From a bacterium (GTDB taxonomy: Bacteria; Myxococcota_A; UBA9042): a DNA stretch of 41,067 nt. The stretch is from assembly GCA_030425545.1 (NCBI GenBank), contig JAUIAC010000019.1:1-41067 (forward strand), written 5' to 3'. Of the stretch, positions 1 through 11,410 are shown piece by piece. Each line of letters opens with the position of its first letter. The stretch's first letter is position 1. Both the position numbers and the translations under genes were made by a program. The notes under the pieces are model-generated. The model searched no databases. It worked only from the letters and a program-made list of their open reading frames with translations, and was not told the DNA's origin.

Positions 1-751
1 CGAGCGCGGCGACGCACTTGAGCGAGCCGTCCGGGTTGATGCCCTTGACCACCTCGCCCTTGTTCTTGCACTCGCCGGCGGGCGTCTTGATGCCCGTGAG
101 CTTGGAGCCGTCCCCCGCGAAGCTCGTCGCGGTCACGGTCGCCGCCGCCAGGTCCCCTGTGAAGGTGCCGTTCTTGGCCTTGAGGCTGTTGCCACCGAGG
201 TCCACATCCTTGTCGAACTTGAGCTCGGCCACCGTGACGCAGCCCGTGCAGGCGACGTCGCTGGCAGGGCCGCCCTTGGTGGCGCTCGCGGCGTAGTTGA
301 AGCCCATCTTCGCGGCGGAGAGCGCGCCGTTGGCCACCTGACCAGCGGTGATGCAGCCGGTGCAGGTGAGCTTGTCGGCCGCGCCCGCGTGGAGCGCGAA
401 GAGCGTCGCGTGCAGCTTGGTCCGCGCCAGCTCCGGGTCACTGCCGATCTTCACGCCGAGCCACTGCGCCTTGAGCGCGCCGAGCTTGGCGATGTCGATG
501 GCCTTGGTGGTGCCGAGCGCGTAGCTGAACTGCCCGCCCTTGAGCGTGACCTTGACCGGCCCCTCGGACCACGCCGCCGAGCCACCCGTGCTGGCGTCAT
601 ACACGCTGAAGGTGACGTCGTAGGTCCCGTCCGCAGCGGCGCCGCCGCCAGCCGACGTCATCGCGCCCTCAATGATCGCGGACGTAGGTGGAGCCGCAAA
701 CACGGGGCCCGCGACCACACTAACCAGGACAGCCAAGAGGTACTTCTTCAT
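1..751 (-). CDS. Secreted modular stalk protein, paralogue 3 (partial, 3' end outside window)
   Basis: The reading frame is open to the window edge, so only the first 250 codons are visible. It starts at an ATG preceded by CGGAG about 8 nt upstream. The N-terminus is a signal peptide (MKKYLLAVLV..., cleavage probably after VFA). It is followed by the stalk shared with the next two upstream genes: an IEGxMTSAGGGAAADGTYDV motif, two CTGC-T motifs near residues 125 and 163, and a GDGSKLTGIKTPAGEC motif. It is the last visible gene of a minus-strand operon, 58 nt after its neighbour. By analogy with its paralogues it should continue into a P-like domain and a C-terminal domain of its own. The first ~180 residues follow the 810-2888 paralogue, whereas the part after KFDKDVDLG follows the 2933-4999 paralogue, which suggests recombination. 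Its function is unknown; it is probably exported to the periplasm or cell surface. Confidence 0.85.
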   Translation of the reverse strand, partial: MKKYLLAVLVSVVAGPVFAAPPTSAIIEGAMTSAGGGAAADGTYDVTFSVYDASTGGSAAWSEGPVKVTLKGGQFSYALGTTKAIDIAKLGALKAQWLGVKIGSDPELARTKLHATLFALHAGAADKLTCTGCITAGQVANGALSAAKMGFNYAASATKGGPASDVACTGCVTVAELKFDKDVDLGGNSLKAKNGTFTGDLAAATVTATSFAGDGSKLTGIKTPAGECKNKGEVVKGINPDGSLKCVAAL

Positions 752-809
752 TGCGTTCACTCCGAGCGAACTGTTGCTATGCGTGGAGGTTGAATGCCAA
801 GCCAGACTG

Positions 810-2888
810 CTAGAGGTCCGACTGCATCCACACCTCGATCTCCGTCGCGCTCCAGTTGTAGGCGCCGCAGAAGTCGTTCCGGCACTGCGACGTACCGTAG
901 CCGCTGTAGCCGTTCGAGCTCGACTGGACGACACGGCAGGTGTAGTCGTGACCCAGGTTGCAGTAGCCGCCGGTCATGTTGCTGCTGTTGATGCACAGGT
1001 CGTGGCCACCGCCAAAGCAAGGCCCGTAGCCGCTGTGGTTGTAGATGCGGTCGTTGTACGAGAACGAGTTGCTGCTGCCGTTGTGGTAGTTCTTGTGGCT
1101 GTAGCGATGCCCGTTGGTGAGGCTGAACAAGAACGTGCCGCCGCAGCCGTAGCTGTAGGCGTTGTAGTAGGGCACCCAGGGGCACGCTGCGTAGCCGCCG
1201 AAGATCTTGTTGTGGTTGTTCTTGATCACCGTGACGGTCGGCCCCTTGTAGTTGCACTTGCTGTGGAAGGTGCTCGAGCTCGTGCCGTCCTTGCTCCGCT
1301 GGTAGCACAGCTTCCACTTCTTGAAGGGCGCGCCAATCCAGCCGTTGATGGTGACGCCGTCCTTGGGCGTGATGAGCTTCGACCCGGGGAACGCCACCGG
1401 GAAGCTGATCGGCACCCACCCGCCGGGCGTGCACACGCTCACGAGGTCGTTGGCGTAGCGCATCGCGCCGTAGCGGCTCTGGTCACAGACCGCCTTGTCG
1501 TCGCCCAGCTTCACGCTGGTGCCGAGCTGGAGCGGGCTGCTGACCTTGCCGTGGCCCTGGTCTTTGCCCCAGAGCTTGCCGGAGATGTAGACGTCTCCGT
1601 TCTGCGCGATCTTCTGGTTGCTGAGGGTCTTGAGCTTGACGCTGAAGTAGCTGATCCAGCCGTCCTTCTTCGTGCTCGTGTTGCAGTAGGCCGAGTTGCC
1701 CGGCGCCTGGGGCACGCAGAAGCTGGTGTCCTTGACCTTGAGCGTCCAGAGCCCCTGCGGGTTCGCGCCGACCCAGTCGGCGATCTTCTTGCCGGCGCCC
1801 TTCTGCTCCTGCGGCGGGTTCTTCGGGTTGAAGGTCGCGTCGTACTTCTTCTCGTCCTTCTTGCCGCAGGGGTCGCAGAGCACCCAGCCAGTCTTCTTGT
1901 CGTCCGGCGGGAGCAGGTAGATGGCGATCGTCGCCAGGTCCGTGTTCTCCACCTTCACGTTGATGTCGATCTCCTGCGCCGTCCCGATGTTCGGGAAGGT
2001 CAGGTTCCACACCGCGTCGACCCCCTGATTGTCCGGGATGAGCACCTTGTTGCCCGTGGCCGTCGCCGGGATCTCGTCGACGAACTGGTTGGCGATGAGG
2101 CCGTTGGAGATCTCGTCGATGCCGTCCTTGGGGAGCGCGGTCGGGTCCATGGCCTTCACGCACTTGAGCGAGCCGTCGGCGTTGATGCCCTTGACCACCT
2201 CGCCCGCAGTCGTGCACTCGCCAGCCGGAGTCTTCAGGCCGGTCAGCTTGGATCCGTCACCGACGAACTCCTGCGCCATGACCGTACCCGCGGCCGTGAT
2301 GTTGGTCGCCTTGAGGCTCTGCTTGCCCAGGTCCACGTCCTTGTCGAACTTGAGCTCAGCCACCGTCACGCAACCCGTGCAGGCGAGGTCGCTGGCGGGG
2401 CCGCCCTTGGTGGCACTGCCGGCGTAATTGAAGCCCATCTTCGCCGCGGAGAGCGCGCCGTTGGCCACCTGACCAGCCGTGATGCAGCCGGTGCACGTGA
2501 GCTTGTCGGCCGCGCCCGCATGGAGCGCGAAGAGCGTCGCGTGCAACTTCACGCGGGCGAGCTCCGGGTCCGCGCCGATCTTGACGCCGAGCCACTGAGC
2601 CTTGAGCGCACCAAGCTTGGCGATGTCGATGGTCTTGGTCGTGCCCAGCGCGTAGCTGAACTGGCCACCCTTCACGGCGACCTTGACCGGCCCCTCGGAC
2701 CACACTGCGTTGCCCCCGGAGCTCGCCTCATAGACGGAGAAGGTCACATCGTATGTGCCATCGGCTGCGGCGCCGCCCCCAGCGGAGGTCATGAGTCCTT
2801 CAATGACCGACGTGTTCGGCGGCGCCGCCCAAGCCGACATCGGCAAGAGCAGCAACGCCACGAGGGACACGAGCCGACGACGATTCAT
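810..2888 (-). CDS. Secreted modular protein: stalk, P-like domain and TLDc domain
   Basis: This 692-residue protein starts at the ATG in MNRRRLVSL, which has GGAGA 6 nt upstream; an in-frame ATG 12 nt earlier overlaps that ribosome site. A signal peptide ends near SAWA. The stalk shared with its paralogues spans about residues 25-225. Residues ~265-425 resemble a proprotein-convertase P domain (PF01483-like): IPDNQG, VKVENTDLATI, LLPPDDKKTGWVLCDPCG and NPQGLWTLKVKD. A short GAMRY...C..GGWVPI linker follows near 475-493. Residues ~505-688 match the TLDc domain: an LCYQRSKDG start, FHSKC, KGPTVTVIK, IFGGY, TFLFSLTNG, PCFGGGHDLCI and a terminal ATEIEVW. Extra cysteines fit an exported, disulfide-bonded form. 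TLDc proteins are known mainly from eukaryotes (OXR1, NCOA7, TBC1D24), some of which bind V-ATPase; no such role can be assumed here. The domain calls are from motif recognition, not a profile search. Confidence 0.9.
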   Translation of the reverse strand: MNRRRLVSLVALLLLPMSAWAAPPNTSVIEGLMTSAGGGAAADGTYDVTFSVYEASSGGNAVWSEGPVKVAVKGGQFSYALGTTKTIDIAKLGALKAQWLGVKIGADPELARVKLHATLFALHAGAADKLTCTGCITAGQVANGALSAAKMGFNYAGSATKGGPASDLACTGCVTVAELKFDKDVDLGKQSLKATNITAAGTVMAQEFVGDGSKLTGLKTPAGECTTAGEVVKGINADGSLKCVKAMDPTALPKDGIDEISNGLIANQFVDEIPATATGNKVLIPDNQGVDAVWNLTFPNIGTAQEIDINVKVENTDLATIAIYLLPPDDKKTGWVLCDPCGKKDEKKYDATFNPKNPPQEQKGAGKKIADWVGANPQGLWTLKVKDTSFCVPQAPGNSAYCNTSTKKDGWISYFSVKLKTLSNQKIAQNGDVYISGKLWGKDQGHGKVSSPLQLGTSVKLGDDKAVCDQSRYGAMRYANDLVSVCTPGGWVPISFPVAFPGSKLITPKDGVTINGWIGAPFKKWKLCYQRSKDGTSSSTFHSKCNYKGPTVTVIKNNHNKIFGGYAACPWVPYYNAYSYGCGGTFLFSLTNGHRYSHKNYHNGSSNSFSYNDRIYNHSGYGPCFGGGHDLCINSSNMTGGYCNLGHDYTCRVVQSSSNGYSGYGTSQCRNDFCGAYNWSATEIEVWMQSDL

Positions 2889-2932
2889 GTGAGTCTCCAT
2901 TCCGGGTGGCGGCGTCGAGTCCGCCCTGCGCC

Positions 2933-4999
2933 CTACTTGGTCCAGCCGTCAGGCTTGGTGTCGAGGTCGTCGACGAAGCTCAAGCCAGCCGGGAGCTTCA
3001 GGCAGTTGTTGTAGAAGGCGAGCACGTTCTGGCGGTAGTGGTTGCCGTTGTAGCCGTAGCCCGTGCCGCTGGTGGACACGAAGATCACCGTGCTGGTCCG
3101 GTCGGCCGGGATGCTCACGTCGGTCTTGCGGCTGCAGGTGGTCGAGCCGCAGTTGCCCTCCCAGAGGTGCTTGCCGTTGACCGCGGCGCTCGCGCGCTCC
3201 GACCAGCCCGAGTACGACGTGTAGTACCAGTACACCGGCCACGTGACGGCCTTCGAGGTCGTGTTGCGGACCCGGAAGAGCGCCATGGACACCTTGCCGT
3301 TGGTCGACGTGCGCTGCAGGTAGTTCTCCGCCCACACAGTGCTGTTCCACTTGGCGTAGCCCTTCTTCGAGAAGATGGTCATCAGCACGTCGGTGTTCGA
3401 AGACATGTGCTGTGCCTGGTAGTTGCCGTCGGTCCACTGCGAAGGGTGCACACCACCGAACATCGCCGAGTTGTTGCCGGCAAACCAGTTGTAGGGCCAC
3501 TGGTACGTGTCGAAGGCTGCCCAACGGTAGGTGGCCGGCTTGTGCACCGGGCCCCAACCCTGACCGTTGCAGTACTCCATGTACTTGCCAGCCTTGTTGT
3601 AGCGCAGCGCGCCCTCCTGGTCGGCGCCGCAGCTCGAGCTGCTCGTGCCGACCTGAATCTGACCGCTGACGTTCATGTTGCCGGCAACCGCCACCTTCTG
3701 GTTGGAGATGTACTGCATCTTGACCGACCAGTCGGCGATCCAACCGTCCTTGGCGTTGGTGGCGTCGCAGTAGACGGAGTTGCCCGGCGCCTGGGGCACG
3801 CAGAAGCTCACGTCCTTGACCTTCAGCGTCCACAGGCCCTGCGGGTTGGCGCCGATCCAGCCGTCGATCTTCTTGCCCGCGCCCTTCTGCTCCTTGGGGG
3901 GGTTGGCCTTGTTGTACGTCTTGTCGAACTTCTTCTCGTCCTTCTTGCCGCAGGGGTCGCACAGGACGTAGCCGGTCTTCTTGTCGTCCGGGGGCAGCAG
4001 GATCATCGAGATGTTGGACAGGTCGGTGTTCTCCACCTTCACGTTCACGTCGAGCGACTGCGCCGTGCCGATGTTCGGAAAGGTGATGTTGCTCACCGCG
4101 TCCGTGCCCTGGTTGTCCGGGATCGCCACCTTCTTCGTGGGCGCCGCGACGCTGTACACGAACTGGTTGGTCAGCAGGTTGTTGCTGATCTCGTTGAGGC
4201 CGTCAGCCGGCAGCGCGGTCGGGTCCAGCGCGGCGACACACTTGAGCGAGCCGTCGGCGTTGATGCCCTTGACCACCTCGCCCTTGTTCTTGCACTCGCC
4301 GCTGGGCGTCTTGATGCCGGTGAGCTTGGAGCCGTCGCCAGCGAAGCTCGTGGCCGTCACGGTGCCAGCGGCGACGTCGCCGGTGAAGGTGCCGTTCTTG
4401 GCCTTGATGCTGTTGCCGCCGAGGTCGACGTCCTTGTCGAACTTCAGCTCGTCGACGGTGACGCAGCCCGAGCAGGCCAGATCGCTCGCCGGGCCGCCCT
4501 TGGTCTTGCTCCCCGCGTAGTTGAACCCGAGCTTGGCAGCGGAGAGCGAACCGTTGGCGACCTGGTCTGCCGTGATGCAGCCCGTGCAGGTCAGCTTGTC
4601 AGCCGCCCCCGCGTGCAGCGCGAAGAGCGAGGCGTGGAGCTTGACCCGAGCGAGCTCCGGGTCTGCCCCGACCTTCAGCCCGAGCCACTGCGACTTCAGC
4701 GCGGCGAGCTTGGTGATGTCGAGCGTCTTGGTGGTGCCGAGGGCGTAGCTGAACTGCCCACCCTTGACGGCCACCTTGACCGGGCCCTCCGACCACGTGG
4801 CGTTGCCACCGCTGCCGGCCTCGTAGACCGAGAACACGACGTCGTACGTGCCGTCGGCCGCGGCGCCTCCGCCTGCGGAGGTCATCATGCCCTCGATGAG
4901 GGACGTGGTGGGCGCAGCCGCGAAGGAAGACCCCGCCGTCAGGGCGAAGCCGCCAAGCAGCGCTGCTGTCCACAGGAGCGAGCGATTAAACTGGTTCAT
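2933..4999 (-). CDS. Secreted modular protein: stalk, P-like domain and unrecognised C-terminal domain
   Basis: This 688-residue protein starts at the ATG of MNQFNRSLLW, with AGGAGAGG about 6 nt upstream; an in-frame ATG 39 nt earlier lacks such a site. A signal peptide (LLGGFALTAGSSFA) leads into the shared stalk, with paired CTGCIT and CSGCVT motifs and GDGSKLTGIKTPSGEC. A P-like domain follows: IPDNQGTDAVSNITFPN, KVENTDLSNISMILLPPDD and NPQGLWTLKVKDVSFC. Next comes a GALRYN...YCNGQGWGPV linker like those before the tips of other adhesin or fibre proteins. The last ~180 residues are rich in Trp and Tyr (RWAAFDTYQW, WYYTSYSGW), carry a Cys pair (NCGSTTC), and are unrelated to the TLDc tip of the paralogue; I do not recognise this domain. 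The gene lies 54 nt after the Cys-rich lipoprotein gene and 44 nt before the TLDc paralogue, so the three are probably co-transcribed. Confidence 0.9.
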   Translation of the reverse strand: MNQFNRSLLWTAALLGGFALTAGSSFAAAPTTSLIEGMMTSAGGGAAADGTYDVVFSVYEAGSGGNATWSEGPVKVAVKGGQFSYALGTTKTLDITKLAALKSQWLGLKVGADPELARVKLHASLFALHAGAADKLTCTGCITADQVANGSLSAAKLGFNYAGSKTKGGPASDLACSGCVTVDELKFDKDVDLGGNSIKAKNGTFTGDVAAGTVTATSFAGDGSKLTGIKTPSGECKNKGEVVKGINADGSLKCVAALDPTALPADGLNEISNNLLTNQFVYSVAAPTKKVAIPDNQGTDAVSNITFPNIGTAQSLDVNVKVENTDLSNISMILLPPDDKKTGYVLCDPCGKKDEKKFDKTYNKANPPKEQKGAGKKIDGWIGANPQGLWTLKVKDVSFCVPQAPGNSVYCDATNAKDGWIADWSVKMQYISNQKVAVAGNMNVSGQIQVGTSSSSCGADQEGALRYNKAGKYMEYCNGQGWGPVHKPATYRWAAFDTYQWPYNWFAGNNSAMFGGVHPSQWTDGNYQAQHMSSNTDVLMTIFSKKGYAKWNSTVWAENYLQRTSTNGKVSMALFRVRNTTSKAVTWPVYWYYTSYSGWSERASAAVNGKHLWEGNCGSTTCSRKTDVSIPADRTSTVIFVSTSGTGYGYNGNHYRQNVLAFYNNCLKLPAGLSFVDDLDTKPDGWTK

Positions 5000-5053
5000 G
5001 AGATCCTCTCCTGGAGCGCCGCTCAAGCGGGCGTCCAACGCGATGCGTCCTGC

Positions 5054-8000
5054 TTACTTCTTGAGCCCGAGCAGCGTCGACAGCCACTGGTAGAAGCCAA
5101 AGTTGGCTGTGAGCTTTGTGCCCTTGGCGGTGCCCGCCGTGTTGCTGCCACCGGCGAAGGCACGAACCGTGACCTTGCCCGAGCTGCCCTTGACCACGGC
5201 GTTGCCCTGACGCGCCGAGAAGCCCGTCGGCGCGCAGCCCTCGTCTGTGACCCCACTGCAGTCGTTGTCCTTGCCGTCACAGGTCTCGTTCTTGGGCAGC
5301 ACGTCACCAACGCACTTGCCGAGCGAGCCGTCGGCGGCGCACTTCTGCACGCCGTCCTTGCACTCGCCGACGCCGCGCGTCTTGGCGTTGCCGGTGTAGC
5401 AGGACACCGACAGGTTGGTGTTGACCGCGTTGCTGCAGCCCTTGTCCTTGTCGCACTTGTCCTCGGTGCAGGGGTTGCCGTCGTTGCAGGTCAGCGCCTT
5501 GCCGCTCACGCAGGACCAGGTGCCACCGCTGTCCTTGGCGCAGGTGTCGCCCGAGGTGCAGGCGTTGCCGTCCGAGCACGACTGAATCAGGTCCTTGTAG
5601 GCGCACTTGCCGGTCTGCTTGTCGCAGGCGTCCGCGGTGCAGGGGTTGCCGTCGTCGCAGTCCTTGAGCGTGCCGGCCACGCACTTGCCCTGGTCACACT
5701 TGTCACCGGCGGTGCAGGCGTTGCCGTCCGCGTCGCAGGTGCCGCCCTGCGGGGTCTGCACGCAGCCCTTCTTCGGGTCGCAGCTGTCGGCGGTGCAGGG
5801 GTTGCCGTCGTCGCACTTCAGCAACGCACCCGACGCACACTTACCGCTCTTGCAGGTGTCCTGCGTGGTGCAGAGCGAGCCGTCGGCGTCGCAAGGCGTC
5901 CCGTCCGTCTTCACGTCCTGCGCGCACTTGCCCGACTTAATCTCGCACGAGGTCTTCAGGCAGAAGTTGTCCTGAGTGGTGTCGCACTTGACGATGGTCG
6001 CGGGGTTCACCTTGCACTCGTTGTTGGTGTCGCAGTAGAGCGTGCCGTTGCAGGCGTTGCCGTCTTCCTTGCTGGCGCAGTCGGAGTTCTTGGTGCACGC
6101 GCAGGTGTTGGTGCCGCTGACGCACTTGCCGGCGACGCAGGCGTCGTTCTGCGTGCAGCTGTTGCCGTCGTCGCAGCTCTTGTTCTGGAGCGCGGTGTTC
6201 TGGCAGCCGGCCTTCTTGTCGCAGGTGTCGAGCGTGCACTGGTTGTTGTCGTCGCAGTCCTTCGCGACGTTGATCGCCTGACCCTTGCAGATGCCGCCCT
6301 GGCAGGCGTCGCCCGAGGTGCACGCGTCGCCGTCGGAGCAGGCGCCCGACAGCGGCGTGTTCACGCAGCCGTTCTTCGGGTCGCAGCTGTCGCTGGTGCA
6401 GGCGTTGCTGTCGTCGCAGTCGAGGAGCTTGCCCGGCTTGCAGGCGCCGCTGGCGCAGGCGTCGCCGGAGGTGCAGACGTTGTCGTCGGCCTTACACGGC
6501 GTGCCGTCCTGCTCCTGTGCGATCTGGCACTTGCCGGTCTTGGCGTCGCACTTGTTCTTCTGACAGGTGCTGTTCACCGACGTGTCGCACTTGACCACCG
6601 TGCCGGGGTTGATCTTGCACTGGAAGGGCTGGCTGCTCTTGTCGCAGTAGAGCGTACCGTTGCACAGGTTGCCGTCCTCGGAGCCCGCGCAGTCCTTGTC
6701 CGCCGTGCAGCCGCAGGTGTTCACGCCCGACTGGCACGAGCCGTCCTTGCAGAAGTCGTTCTTCGTGCAGGCGTTGCCGTCGTCGCAGTTGGACGCGTTG
6801 GCGGGCAGGCTGACGCAGCCCTTCTGCGGGTTGCAGCTCTCACCCGTGCACGGGTTGTTGTCGTCGCACTTGGTCTTGACGTCGATGCTGGTGCCCGCGC
6901 ACGTCCCCTTGGAGCACGCGTCCTTGTCGGTGCACGCGTCGCCGTCGTCGCAGGCCTGGCCGTCGGTGACCGGGCTGAACACGCAGCCCTTGTCCTTGTC
7001 GCACTGGTCCTGGGTGCAGGGGTTCTTGTCATTGCACTTCACCGCGTTCGGCCCGACGCAGGTGTAGACGCCCGTGGTGGGCTCCTTGCCGCAGGCGTCG
7101 TTGAGGGTGCAGGCGTTGCCGTCGTCGCACTTGTCGACCACGGGCGCGTAAAGGCACTTGCCGCTGGTCTTGTCGCAGCTGTCGGTCGTGCACGGCTCCT
7201 TGTCGTCGCAGTCCTTGGCCTTGCCAGCCACGCAGGTGCCCGCCTGGCAGAGGTCCGAGACGGTGCAGAGGCTGCCGTCGGCGTCGCAGGGGTTGGTGTT
7301 CGGCTTGTGGGTGCAGCCCGACTTCGGGTCGCAGGCGTCGTCGGTGCAGCTGTTCTTGTCGTCGCAGTCGACCGGCGCGCCCTGGAGGCACTTGCCGTTC
7401 TTGCAGGCGTCGTCCTTGGTGCACACGTTGCCGTCGGCGTCGCAGGGCTTACCGGCGTTCTCCTGGGTGATCTCGCACTTGCCCGACTTCGCGTTGCAGG
7501 CGTTGGACTGGCACTCGTTGTTCAGCGACTTGTCGCAGTTGATGACGGTGCCCGGCTTGATCTCGCAGGTGAACTTCCCCTTGGCGGTGTTGCAGTAGAG
7601 CGTGCCGTTGCAGAGGTTGCCGTCTTCCTTGGTGGCGCAGTCGCTGTCCTTGGTGCAGCCACAGGTGTTGACCCCCGACTCGCACTTGCCGGCCTTGCAC
7701 GCGTCGTTGACGGTGCAGGTGTTGCCGTCGTCGCAGGAGCCGGCGTTCTTCGGCGCGTTGACGCAGCCCTTGTCGGCCTCGCACGAGTCGACGGTGCAGC
7801 TGTTGTCGTCGTCGCAGGACGCGGTGACGTCGATCGACAGACCGACGCACTTGCTGTCCTTGCAGCTGTCCTGGTTGGTGCACTTGCTGCCGTCGTCGCA
7901 GGGGCCGGTCGCGCCCTTGTGCAGGCAGCCCGACTTCGGGTCGCAGCTGTCGATGGTGCAGGTGTTCTTGTCGTCACAGTCGAGGACCTCGCCCTTGCAG

Positions 8001-9313
8001 ACGTCGCCCTTGCACTTCTCGTCCTTGCTGCAGGGGTTGCCGTCGTTGCAGACCTCGCCGTCCTTGCTCGTGTACTTGCACTTGCCGCCGTTGAGATCGC
8101 ACTTGCCGAGGATGCAGACGTCGCCGCTGTCGCACGACTTCTTGGCGCCGGCCTCGCACTTGCCGTCCTTGCACAGGTCGTTGGTGGTGCAGGGGTTGTC
8201 GTCGGCGTTGCAGGGCAAGCCGCTGCCTGGGGCGTACACGCAGCCCTTCTTCGGGTCACAGGTGTCGGTGGTGCAGGGGTTGCCGTCGTCGCAGGTCTTG
8301 GCGGCGCCAGCGACGCACTTGCCGTCCTTGCACTGGTCCTTCTCGGTGCACACCGAGCCGTCGGCGTCGCAAGCCTGGCCCGAGTCGTTGGTGTACTTGC
8401 AGCCGTCGGCGCCGCCACAGGCGTCCTTCGTGCAGGGGTTGCCGTCGTCGCAGGTGCCGTCGTCGGTCTGGCCGTTGCAGTCGTTGTCGACGCCGTCGCA
8501 GGTCTCGGTCGCCGGCTCCGGCGCGGAGCACGCGGTCAGGCCGCCGCCGTCGGGCGCGCCGGGCGTGCCGTCGGCCGCGCACTTGCGGCTGCCGAGGCAC
8601 TTGCCGCCGTTGCTGTGGGCCGCGTAGCAGTAGGTCTTCATCTCCGTGGCCATGGCGGCGTCGCTGCAGCCGCAGTCGTCGCCCTTGGGCAGCACGCACT
8701 GCTTGACGTTGGCGCCGTCGACGTCGGTGGCGTCTTCGCAGCCGTAGCCCGTCGGGCAGTCCGCGGCCGAGTCGCACTTGGTGCCGCAGTAGCCGCCGGC
8801 GTCACCGCGGTCGACGCACACCGCGCCGGCCGAGCCGACGCCCACGCACTGGTCGTTGGTCTCGCAGGGGTTGCAGATGGCGCCGAACTTCTTCGCGCAG
8901 ATCTTGTCCTTGTTGCTGCCCTTGCCCTGCACCTCGACGCAGGTCTCGTCGTCGGCGCAGGGGTCGTCGGCGCACGGCTTGGCGCAGGTCTTGCTGCCGC
9001 CGTTGTCGATGCAGTGACCGGAGTAGCACTCGTCGTCGGTCTTGCACACGCACGTCGGTGCGCCGGGGCAGACCGGGGCGGCGTCTGTCGAGGTGTCTTG
9101 CTCGACGTTGGTGTCGGGGCCAGCGTCTTCGCCAGTCACGGTGTCGGCGCCGCCGCCGACGTCCTCCGCGCCAGCGTCGGTCTGACCGGCGTCCGGGTCA
9201 GCAGCGACGTCGGTCGTCTCACCCTCGACGCCAGCGCCGTCCCCGCAGCCCATCGCCGTGAGCATCACCAAACACGCTGCCGCGCGGGCCGCATTCATCC
9301 AGATCATCCGCAT
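5054..9313 (-). CDS. Giant Cys-rich repeat lipoprotein with MopE-type motifs
   Basis: This 1419-residue protein starts at MRMIWMNAAR, with GGGAGAGG just upstream. A hydrophobic stretch ends in LTAMGC, a plausible though atypical lipobox, followed by a disordered Asp/Thr/Gly/Ala-rich linker to about residue 80. Residues ~80-260 hold irregular Cys-rich segments (CVCKTDDEC, CDSAADC). The rest carries about 30 units of two alternating forms, CDDxNPCTxDxCDPKxGC and CDADGxxCTxxDxCxxGKC. Three longer modules interrupt them (C-G/A-CTxDxDCxxxEDGNxCNGTLYC, then an NCD/KCD segment). Two CDGxDNDCxGxTD-G motifs, near residues 272-289 and 1343-1360, match the putative metal-binding MopE motif (PF11617-like). 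The final 59 residues lack Cys and may be a sorting or interaction tail. It is the first gene of the cluster with the three stalk proteins. A disulfide-rich, possibly metal-binding surface filament is an inference. Confidence 0.9.
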   Translation of the reverse strand: MRMIWMNAARAAACLVMLTAMGCGDGAGVEGETTDVAADPDAGQTDAGAEDVGGGADTVTGEDAGPDTNVEQDTSTDAAPVCPGAPTCVCKTDDECYSGHCIDNGGSKTCAKPCADDPCADDETCVEVQGKGSNKDKICAKKFGAICNPCETNDQCVGVGSAGAVCVDRGDAGGYCGTKCDSAADCPTGYGCEDATDVDGANVKQCVLPKGDDCGCSDAAMATEMKTYCYAAHSNGGKCLGSRKCAADGTPGAPDGGGLTACSAPEPATETCDGVDNDCNGQTDDGTCDDGNPCTKDACGGADGCKYTNDSGQACDADGSVCTEKDQCKDGKCVAGAAKTCDDGNPCTTDTCDPKKGCVYAPGSGLPCNADDNPCTTNDLCKDGKCEAGAKKSCDSGDVCILGKCDLNGGKCKYTSKDGEVCNDGNPCSKDEKCKGDVCKGEVLDCDDKNTCTIDSCDPKSGCLHKGATGPCDDGSKCTNQDSCKDSKCVGLSIDVTASCDDDNSCTVDSCEADKGCVNAPKNAGSCDDGNTCTVNDACKAGKCESGVNTCGCTKDSDCATKEDGNLCNGTLYCNTAKGKFTCEIKPGTVINCDKSLNNECQSNACNAKSGKCEITQENAGKPCDADGNVCTKDDACKNGKCLQGAPVDCDDKNSCTDDACDPKSGCTHKPNTNPCDADGSLCTVSDLCQAGTCVAGKAKDCDDKEPCTTDSCDKTSGKCLYAPVVDKCDDGNACTLNDACGKEPTTGVYTCVGPNAVKCNDKNPCTQDQCDKDKGCVFSPVTDGQACDDGDACTDKDACSKGTCAGTSIDVKTKCDDNNPCTGESCNPQKGCVSLPANASNCDDGNACTKNDFCKDGSCQSGVNTCGCTADKDCAGSEDGNLCNGTLYCDKSSQPFQCKINPGTVVKCDTSVNSTCQKNKCDAKTGKCQIAQEQDGTPCKADDNVCTSGDACASGACKPGKLLDCDDSNACTSDSCDPKNGCVNTPLSGACSDGDACTSGDACQGGICKGQAINVAKDCDDNNQCTLDTCDKKAGCQNTALQNKSCDDGNSCTQNDACVAGKCVSGTNTCACTKNSDCASKEDGNACNGTLYCDTNNECKVNPATIVKCDTTQDNFCLKTSCEIKSGKCAQDVKTDGTPCDADGSLCTTQDTCKSGKCASGALLKCDDGNPCTADSCDPKKGCVQTPQGGTCDADGNACTAGDKCDQGKCVAGTLKDCDDGNPCTADACDKQTGKCAYKDLIQSCSDGNACTSGDTCAKDSGGTWSCVSGKALTCNDGNPCTEDKCDKDKGCSNAVNTNLSVSCYTGNAKTRGVGECKDGVQKCAADGSLGKCVGDVLPKNETCDGKDNDCSGVTDEGCAPTGFSARQGNAVVKGSSGKVTVRAFAGGSNTAGTAKGTKLTANFGFYQWLSTLLGLKK

Positions 9314-9607
9314 GGTCCCTCTCCCTCTGCATCCCCATGTCACGTTCGTCTCCGCGTTGGAGTCACGGCTTGATCACGCAAGATGGGATGTCTGCCTTGG
9401 CACGATGCCGATTGCGCGGGGCACGGTCAAGCGGGTTGGCGACGGTCCGACAGCTCCCTCAAAGGGCATCGCGCTGGGCGTTGGCTCGGCGCGAGGCGTC
9501 CGTTGCGCCCGCACGATCTCGTACGGTCCGCCGTCCTGACCTGAGGCCCACGGGAATCGCGGGGGACAGACGAGACATGCGTGGCTCTGGCAGGGCGGAG
9601 CGTCGTG
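9314..9607. other. Intergenic spacer upstream of the Cys-rich/stalk operon
   Basis: This 294-nt stretch separates the stop of the SMB-containing lipoprotein gene from the start of the giant Cys-rich lipoprotein gene, both on the minus strand. No convincing coding region is seen. On the minus strand a TTGACC (9425-9430) lies 17 nt before a poor -10 candidate (9402-9407), so a separate promoter for the downstream operon is possible but weak. Confidence 0.4.
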
Positions 9608-11410
9608 CTATGACTTGCACACCGGCGGCGACGTGGTCGACGAGAGCGAGCACTTGGTGCCCCCGCTACACGTCTTGTACTGCTGCCAGGGCCCACCGGC
9701 CGGCTGGAGCTGGCTGCACTTCGACGCGTCGATGCCGGTGCAGCCCGGGTACAGGTCGCGCTTGTAGCCTGTGTTGCCCTCGCACTTGTACTGCGAGCTG
9801 AGCTTGAACGAGCTGCAGGGCGTGCCCAGGGGCTTGAGCTTGCCTGCGCCGACGTCACAGCAGACGCCCGAGGAGCAGCAGTCCGTGTCCTTCTCGATGG
9901 CGCAGCTCCCGTCGCCCTTGCACACCGCTTTTTCGCACGTGCTCGGGTTGACCTGGCCCACGCAGTCCGCGTCTTCCTTGCAACAGTTGGGCTTGGTCTT
10001 GCCGACGCACGTGCCGGTGGCGGAGCAGGTGGTCGAGATGGTGCACGCGTCGTCGTCGGAGCAGGTCGAGCCGGTCTTGGCCGAGGTCCACGTCGAGGGA
10101 GACGTGGCCGCGTTGCAGGTCTGGCATCCGAAGCTGCCGGGCTTGCTCGCGCCGCCTTGCACGCAGGCGCCGTCGATGACGCACCAACCCGTCTTGGGGG
10201 TGAGTGACGACGACGAGGTCGCGGGGTCGCAGACCGCGCAGTCGAGCTTCGGGTCGCCAGCGCCGGTGTCGTAGCAGACCCCGTCGACCGCGCACTTGCC
10301 GGCCACGCCGCTCCACGCCTTGGGGTTCTTGGACGGCTGACAGGTCGCGCAGGTCGGGTTCTTGGGGTCGCCCGCGCCGCCGGCGAAGCACTTGCCGTCG
10401 ATGTAGCAGCTGCCCGACGAGACGCTCCAGGTGTCGCCGCTCACGGCTGGGTTGCAGACCCGGCACTCGTCGGGCGCGGTCGTCGCCTTCTCGCCGCTCT
10501 TCTTGCAGAGGCCGTCCACGAGACACGTGCCGGCCTTGGCGGTCCAGGCGTTCTGGTCCTTGTCTGGCTGACACAGCATGCAGCCGCCGCTGCCTGGCTT
10601 GCTGGCGCCAGCGCCGTGGCACGCACCGTCGACGAGACACTTCACCGCCGAGAGCTTGTGCTTGCACTCGCCGGTGGCGGGGTCGCACGAGTCGATGGTG
10701 CAGTCGACGCCGTCGTCGCAGTCCTTCTGGACGTCGGTGCAGCTGCCCTGCAGGCACGTCGGCTTGATGCACTTGTTCTGGCCGGCGGCGCCGCACTCCG
10801 CGTCGCTGTTGCAGCAGCCGAAGAAGGGGACCTGCTTGCAGAACTTGGCGCCGCCCCGGGCGTCCTGGCAGGAGTCGGTGGTGCAGTCGTTGCCGTCGTC
10901 GCACTGGGCCTTGCTCTCGCAGCCGCACGCGCCCTGAAAGTCGGGGCAGCAGTCGTTGCGGCCGACGCAGGCGTGGTCGCAATGGCAGGGGTTGGTCTCG
11001 AGCTTCAGCCCGCACTTGCCTTCGCAGGACACGATCGCAGGAGCGGCGGTGTCTTCGCTGGCCGAGTCGCTCTGGCCGTCGGCCTGGGCCGACGCGTCGA
11101 CCGTGGCGTCGGTCGCGTCGGCGCCGGTCTCGACGCTGTCTTCGCCCGGCTGCGTGTCGTTGCTGAAGGTCCAGCCCCCGGTGTCGCCAGCGGCGTCAGC
11201 GACCTTGATGTCCAGCGTGTAGACCGGGCCGGCGTCCGTCCCAGAGTCCTCTTCGCCACAGGCGACGCCGAGCACCACCGCGGCGACGATGGCGACCCAG
11301 GGGCGCAACGCGCGGCGAGGTGCGCCCCGCAGAGAGGCCGGCGCGAGGGGGCCGTGGGTCGTGGTCGGGCGGGGCTGGCGTGGGTTGATTCGTGTCATAG
11401 CGCGGCGCAT
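9608..11410 (-). CDS. Cys-rich lipoprotein with somatomedin-B-like domain and five ~38-residue repeats
   Basis: This 600-residue protein starts at an ATG (MRRAMTRIN) preceded by GGAAGG at 6 nt; an alternative ATG four codons later (11398) would give a near-leaderless mRNA. A hydrophobic segment ends at VVLGVAC (residues ~38-51), a probable lipidation site, followed by an Asp/Thr/Ala-rich linker. Residues 129-162 contain eight cysteines in somatomedin-B order: CEGKC, CHCDHAC, CCPDF and a final C. Residues ~170-250 hold CDDGxDCTxDSC units. Residues 258-450 contain five ~38-residue repeats, each opening with C-x-(I/V)DGxC and containing C-x-x-C, at about 258, 296, 335, 373 and 410. A C-terminal Cys-rich domain follows (CCKEDADC, CCSSGVCCD). 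It lies upstream of the stalk operon and is probably part of the same surface system, but its function is unknown. Confidence 0.88.
   Translation of the reverse strand: MRRAMTRINPRQPRPTTTHGPLAPASLRGAPRRALRPWVAIVAAVVLGVACGEEDSGTDAGPVYTLDIKVADAAGDTGGWTFSNDTQPGEDSVETGADATDATVDASAQADGQSDSASEDTAAPAIVSCEGKCGLKLETNPCHCDHACVGRNDCCPDFQGACGCESKAQCDDGNDCTTDSCQDARGGAKFCKQVPFFGCCNSDAECGAAGQNKCIKPTCLQGSCTDVQKDCDDGVDCTIDSCDPATGECKHKLSAVKCLVDGACHGAGASKPGSGGCMLCQPDKDQNAWTAKAGTCLVDGLCKKSGEKATTAPDECRVCNPAVSGDTWSVSSGSCYIDGKCFAGGAGDPKNPTCATCQPSKNPKAWSGVAGKCAVDGVCYDTGAGDPKLDCAVCDPATSSSSLTPKTGWCVIDGACVQGGASKPGSFGCQTCNAATSPSTWTSAKTGSTCSDDDACTISTTCSATGTCVGKTKPNCCKEDADCVGQVNPSTCEKAVCKGDGSCAIEKDTDCCSSGVCCDVGAGKLKPLGTPCSSFKLSSQYKCEGNTGYKRDLYPGCTGIDASKCSQLQPAGGPWQQYKTCSGGTKCSLSSTTSPPVCKS

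Follow-up and report, generated by a model that had tools for sequence, protein, structure and literature searches.

The DNA analysed here (the window) is a 41,067-nucleotide stretch that makes up one whole contig, C924 (GenBank JAUIAC010000019.1), of a metagenome-assembled Myxococcota genome of 7.44 Mb in 945 contigs with 92% completeness. At one end of it three consecutive genes on the same strand, A3, A2 and A1, encode proteins with a common constant part, or stalk, and the contig end interrupts the last of them (Table 1). The initial annotation, made from the letters of the window alone, described such an array of secreted proteins with a constant stalk and exchangeable tips behind a giant Cys-rich lipoprotein gene, and the gene order is as it stated. 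Co-transcription of the Cys-rich gene, A3, A2 and A1 is plausible, because the short gaps between them hold ribosome-binding-like sequence and no intrinsic terminator was found in them.

The proteins A2 and A3 are 68% identical across 508 aligned residues, an alignment that reaches past the P-domain, and have nothing in common after it. The sharing was thus read correctly at first, while its length was underestimated: the constant part comprises about 430 residues rather than a stalk of about 200. A signal peptide opens it; a beta domain and a fibre-like segment come next, and a P-domain of the furin type closes it. In each of the three genes a Sec-type signal sequence precedes the common stalk; the signal peptides themselves, which had been taken as shared, are not alike in sequence (about 50–60% DNA identity). 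In the AlphaFold 2 (AF2) models, all of them monomeric, the domain that follows the signal peptide is beta-rich, with a predicted local distance difference test (pLDDT) value of ~90; it is conserved in 41 family members, and no relative was found for it in the PDB. The modeled P-domain (pLDDT ~95) was matched by Foldseek to the P-domains of Kex2/furin at an E-value of 4e-7. Although the Pfam matches to PF01483 are weak and below the cut-off in both complete window genes, where a P-like domain had been proposed, this family is matched at E<=0.1 by 29 of the 41 members and exceeds the curated cut-off in several relatives, so that the domain is a proprotein convertase P-domain with a jelly-roll fold. 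Because the GVVTATSFFGDGSKLTGI motif of the fibre-like part recurs many times, slightly varied, in a fibre that ends in S74 and is encoded on a viral contig, a trimeric beta-fibre stalk is a reasonable inference. Matches of the stalk to NEAT and IsdC were far below cut-off and were dismissed. One protein of 1201 residues (L037, C481:5414-9235) has only the first stalk domain in common with the family; pentapeptide-like and phage-fibre-like repeats follow, with no P-domain.

Table 1. Features of the stalk-gene array and the adjoining Cys-rich gene in the window.
Feature	Position	Strand	Description
Cys-rich gene	5054..9343	minus	Large protein, 14 Dicty_CTDC repeats; possible lipoprotein (...LTAMGCGDG)
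Cys-rich gene–A3 gap	5000..5053	minus	54 nt; plausible ribosome-binding site CAGGAG
Gene A3	2933..4999	minus	Complete constant-stalk protein, 688 aa, Trp/Tyr-rich tip
A3 signal peptide	4916..4999	minus	Judged by eye: basic start, hydrophobic core, ...SSFAAAP
A3 stalk	4190..4915	minus	Beta domain (residues ~33-125), then Cys-bearing and phage-fibre-like segment (~126-270); from alignments and AF2 model
A3 P-domain	3704..4165	minus	Residues 279-432; from AF2, Foldseek and Pfam PF01483 in the family
A3 linker and Trp/Tyr-rich tip	2936..3691	minus	Tip class in 15 genes
A3–A2 gap	2901..2932	minus	32 nt; no terminator
Gene A2	810..2900	minus	Complete constant-stalk protein, 696 aa, TLDc tip
A2 constant part (signal peptide, stalk, P-domain)	1608..2900	minus
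A2 TLDc domain	825..1325	minus	PF07534, E 1.9e-24 and 4.3e-25 in two scans; NCOA7 TLDc structures, E 1e-7
A2–A1 gap	752..809	minus	58 nt; no terminator
Gene A1	2..751	minus	Constant stalk; contig end cuts the gene inside the linker before the P-domain

The stalk family extends well beyond the window. At least 17 paralogues were found in the source genome, with 26 matching stretches in all, and the family there has roughly 20 members. It is present in 71 of 90 relatives and is widespread in one uncultured Myxococcota family; distant relatives have only parts of the constant region, either the first domain or the P-domain. Five relatives that were rescored contain 24 to 92 matching stretches per genome, which are counts of stretches and not of genes. 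Most members elsewhere are dispersed single genes and not operons. A phage or plasmid origin was rejected, since the full-length stalk protein had no match in phage or plasmid records. In three genes from relatives of genus g6 with only 3-6 family stretches (L055, L056 and L057), the tips resemble by eye a phage tail-collar domain (CPVGW...NG...TPN..GR.PIG.G).

From ten genomes 130 stalk genes were extracted, of which 120 reach the tip, and the proposal of a constant carrier with variable ends holds across all of these. Clustering of their tips gave 22 groups, of which ten hold at least two genes. Tips similar to FReD/COLFI domains occur in 52 genes; the class profile matches intelectin at E 1.5e-14, mainly over its N-terminal part, and the tips of C443 and C879 exceed the COLFI cut-off, which assigns the class to the fibrillar collagen C-terminal or fibrinogen-related domains (PF01410 or PF00147 above cut-off). 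The Trp/Tyr-rich class of A3 matched no Pfam family and no PDB sequence. The TLDc class (5 genes) includes A2, in which PF07534 scores 87 bits against a cut-off of 24.5; the ends of A2 and A3 are as unrelated as first described. CTHRC1 tips, also in 5 genes, are represented by C10, where PF25815 (CTHRC1_C) has an E-value of 1.4e-39 and 136 bits against a cut-off of 27. The profile of another class (12 genes) matches C1q-like structures weakly, with best E-values of 0.0012-0.0015, and PF00386 reaches 14.5 and 11.2 bits against a cut-off of 23.7; this class is called C1q-like, not C1q. Repeats similar to C-type lectin/Xlink domains form the lectin/link-like tips of 7 genes, with weak matches, and an ALK/LTK glycine-rich domain is among the other classes. 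Outside the stalk family, two further TLDc domains occur in a 6080-residue open frame (C770:58168-60087, loci L242 and L244).

One syntenic locus was compared among three genomes of one genus. Full-length orthologues of the Cys-rich gene, 73% identical over about 1440 residues, precede family genes in genomes G001 and G003. The genes that follow the family gene on source-genome contig C439 likewise have their orthologues at the downstream end of the locus in G001 and G003, and the ends of C924 and C439 overlap by 47 bp with one mismatch. On these grounds the order in the source genome is probably Cys-rich, Trp/Tyr, TLDc, A1 and C1q, where A1 probably continues on C439 (positions 2-1189) and would carry a C1q-like tip. 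In G001 the Cys-rich gene is followed by an Xlink-like tip gene, a Trp/Tyr tip gene and a cut gene, with C1q then on another contig; in G003 it is followed by C1q alone. This difference in the number and kind of tips, as the locus is reconstructed, is the strongest evidence for a modular reading. An always fixed combination of stalk and tip, which the initial annotation named as grounds for giving up the idea, is contradicted both by these three genomes and by the tree tests described below.

The constant parts and the tips have discordant histories. Mapped onto a tree of 67 constant parts, the tip label has to change 29 times, and because this number lies between the minimum of 14 and the 42.6 obtained when labels are shuffled, both inheritance and exchange of tips are indicated. 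Approximately unbiased (AU) tests on the stalk tree reject a single clade of Trp/Tyr tips (p 3.7e-50), a single clade of TLDc tips (p 4.5e-5) and a grouping of A3 with C162 (p 0.005). The closest stalk to that of A2, at 90% identity, is that of C162, whose Trp/Tyr tip is related to the tip of A3. Two tandem genes in G001 have cores that are 92% identical and unrelated tips. The best partner of a core lies within the same genome for 35 of 63 genes, 23 of them paired with another tip class; for tips this is so in only 9 of 57. Tips were compared by bit score, since identities of unrelated tips, calculated with free end gaps, cannot be relied on where overlaps are short. DNA profiles of most close pairs show a core identity of roughly 65-95% that drops to about 40-50% to either side, and the breakpoints are not the same from pair to pair. 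Two neighbouring genes in G003 have an identical 1155-bp core tract inside diverged flanks, as expected of gene conversion, though an assembler could exaggerate the exactness of the tract. Exact tracts of 1018 bp and 208 bp (in G007 and G010) came from overlapping stop-to-stop frames and were discarded. The lectin/link-like tips of L024 (C802) and L094 (G001, another species) are 84% identical, their cores only 70%, and their loci differ.

We consider it probable that these proteins are secreted fibre adhesins, most likely displayed at the surface, in which a constant part bears a C-terminal recognition domain drawn from many unrelated kinds. This reading draws on the family as such, on its tip classes, on the discordance of the histories and on the differing tips of the syntenic locus. 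The signal peptide, beta domain, phage-fibre-like segment and P-domain would together present one C-terminal tip, probably on a trimer. Because a genome holds about 20 stalk-tip proteins, one cell could present many binding specificities. The tips would most likely bind glycans or proteins carried by prey, by neighbours or by particles; they might serve in prey recognition, in attachment to particles or in matrix building. The repertoire probably evolves through gene duplication and recombination within the conserved core, which would homogenise stalks within a genome and re-assort stalks with tips, and the window array is probably one active locus of such recombination. Doubtful, in our opinion, is the further step that recombination still under way, with the stalk DNA as its homology arms, exchanges the expressed tips in a population; the result would be a surface variation system whose domain types are known chiefly from animals. 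Of the modular surface or secretion system proposed initially, a set of surface or extracellular adhesins is indicated and a secretion system is not.

Several points weigh against the adhesin reading. We infer trimeric assembly, surface location and ligand binding of the stalk proteins, and the adhesive nature of the tips is deduced from their folds; to our knowledge some tip domains, TLDc for example, are not established adhesins. The fibre-like segment (residues ~126-270) is poorly modeled by AF2 as a monomer, and the A3 Trp/Tyr tip, modeled from seven sequences, reached a pLDDT of 50. The S74 domain (PF13884) is absent from the source genome, so that of the mosaic adhesive trimer (MAT) fibres, with which the family is compared below, only the non-S74 subgroup is possible. 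Because stalk repeats break contigs in these fragmented metagenome assemblies, joins at repeats could be wrong. Finally, in 25 of 46 genes of the genus (null 5.5) the nearest stalk belongs to a gene of the same tip class, and exchange is for this reason frequent in a subset and not constant. Stable and shuffled stalk genes exist side by side, and those of the window are among the shuffled.

The stalk proteins and the Cys-rich giants could instead build a surface coat or biofilm matrix, in which the tips cross-link rather than recognise; we hold this tentative alternative to be unlikely. In animals COLFI, CTHRC1, C1q and FReD are matrix-type domains, and the stalk genes repeatedly adjoin genes for large Dicty_CTDC Cys-rich proteins, which are numerous in the genome (the 150 best repeat matches are on dozens of contigs). 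A giant of this kind lies upstream of the array, as first noted; given their number, this neighbour of the array is not unique. Against the alternative, the diversity of the tips and their re-assortment between congeners are more in keeping with targets that change than with one unvarying role in structure. Upstream of the giant, at 9608-11278 on the minus strand, a second Cys-rich protein combines Dicty_CTDC-like repeats with a somatomedin-B domain (E 1e-6).

An ordinary old multigene family, in which each tip was fused once to a stalk and the pairs have been co-inherited since, would account for the excess of same-class neighbours and for clean stalk-tip orthologues such as G001_L149/G003_L162. 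It is very improbable as a general explanation, given that a single origin is rejected by the AU tests for the Trp/Tyr tips as well as for the TLDc tips and that tip class differs in 13 of the 15 closest stalk pairs, and the varying tip content of the syntenic locus contradicts it for the subset to which the window belongs. It is scarcely credible that the shuffling is chimeric, the stalk of one copy having been joined to the tip of another during assembly. The assemblies do comprise hundreds of contigs, and several family genes lie at contig ends; in the source genome, however, no exact tract common to paralogues is longer than 83 bp, and stalks diverge at 8-20% of their bases, which a graph assembler should separate; tandem genes sit inside long contigs, and the same pattern occurs in several independently assembled genomes. 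Polymorphic effector delivery, with the constant part as secretion carrier and the tips as toxins or enzymes, is hardly tenable: polymorphic toxins, too, pair an unvarying N-terminus with C-termini that differ, and TLDc has no settled extracellular role, but the recognised tips are mostly binding folds with no toxin or nuclease family among them.

On the adhesin reading, the family would provide a concrete repertoire of candidate recognition proteins with predicted binding folds for uncultured Myxococcota, numbering about 20 in each genome of this genus and larger in some relatives, and a natural system for studying the exchange of adhesin tips in bacteria under a constant stalk.

Among known systems, the nearest kind appears to be the MAT fibres of Bdellovibrio bacteriovorus, which number about 20 proteins per genome (PMC10769870). 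In these, a conserved beta-rich domain of ~100-130 residues directly follows the signal peptide, and a fibre-like middle comes next; they are trimeric and surface-displayed, with an example of a glycan-binding tip, and their tips are of unrelated folds including TNF/C1q-like and C-type-lectin-like ones (PMC10769870). Different tips occur there too on near-identical stalks, as in Bd1334/Bd2133, with fibres 75% identical (PMC10769870). Both the position of a beta-rich domain directly after the signal peptide, a likeness of architecture only, and a common fibre with diverse tips are found in the stalk family, and adhesins with exchangeable tips would be the corresponding reading, with adhesion judged from the folds; we liken the two by architecture and do not claim membership. 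The stalk family differs in having a furin-type P-domain between fibre and tip, in tips that include COLFI/FReD, CTHRC1, TLDc and ALK-type glycine-rich domains, in reaching about 90 stretches in one relative, and in the re-assortment seen at a syntenic locus.

Extracellular contractile injection system (eCIS) tail fibres likewise combine a constant base with variable receptor-binding domains, C1q included (PMC12923769). The stalk proteins resemble them in having a constant part with variable ends, C1q-like ones among them, and differ in their Sec-type signal peptides; no injection-system genes lie beside the inspected part of the window locus, and no eCIS attachment domain turned up, although no search aimed at one was made. 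Phage tail fibres also contain the FxGDGSKLTG repeat segment, in S74-ended fibres, and the P-domain fold, in P-domain tail proteins, whereas the stalk genes are chromosomal and encode a signal peptide. The tip families themselves are those of animal C1q/TNF, CTHRC1, fibrillar-collagen propeptide and FReD proteins, and in animals several of them cap trimeric stalks; in place of a collagen stalk, the present family has a bacterial fibre and a P-domain. The MAT principle would in this way extend to another phylum with a different architecture, one that joins a P-domain to tip families known from animals.
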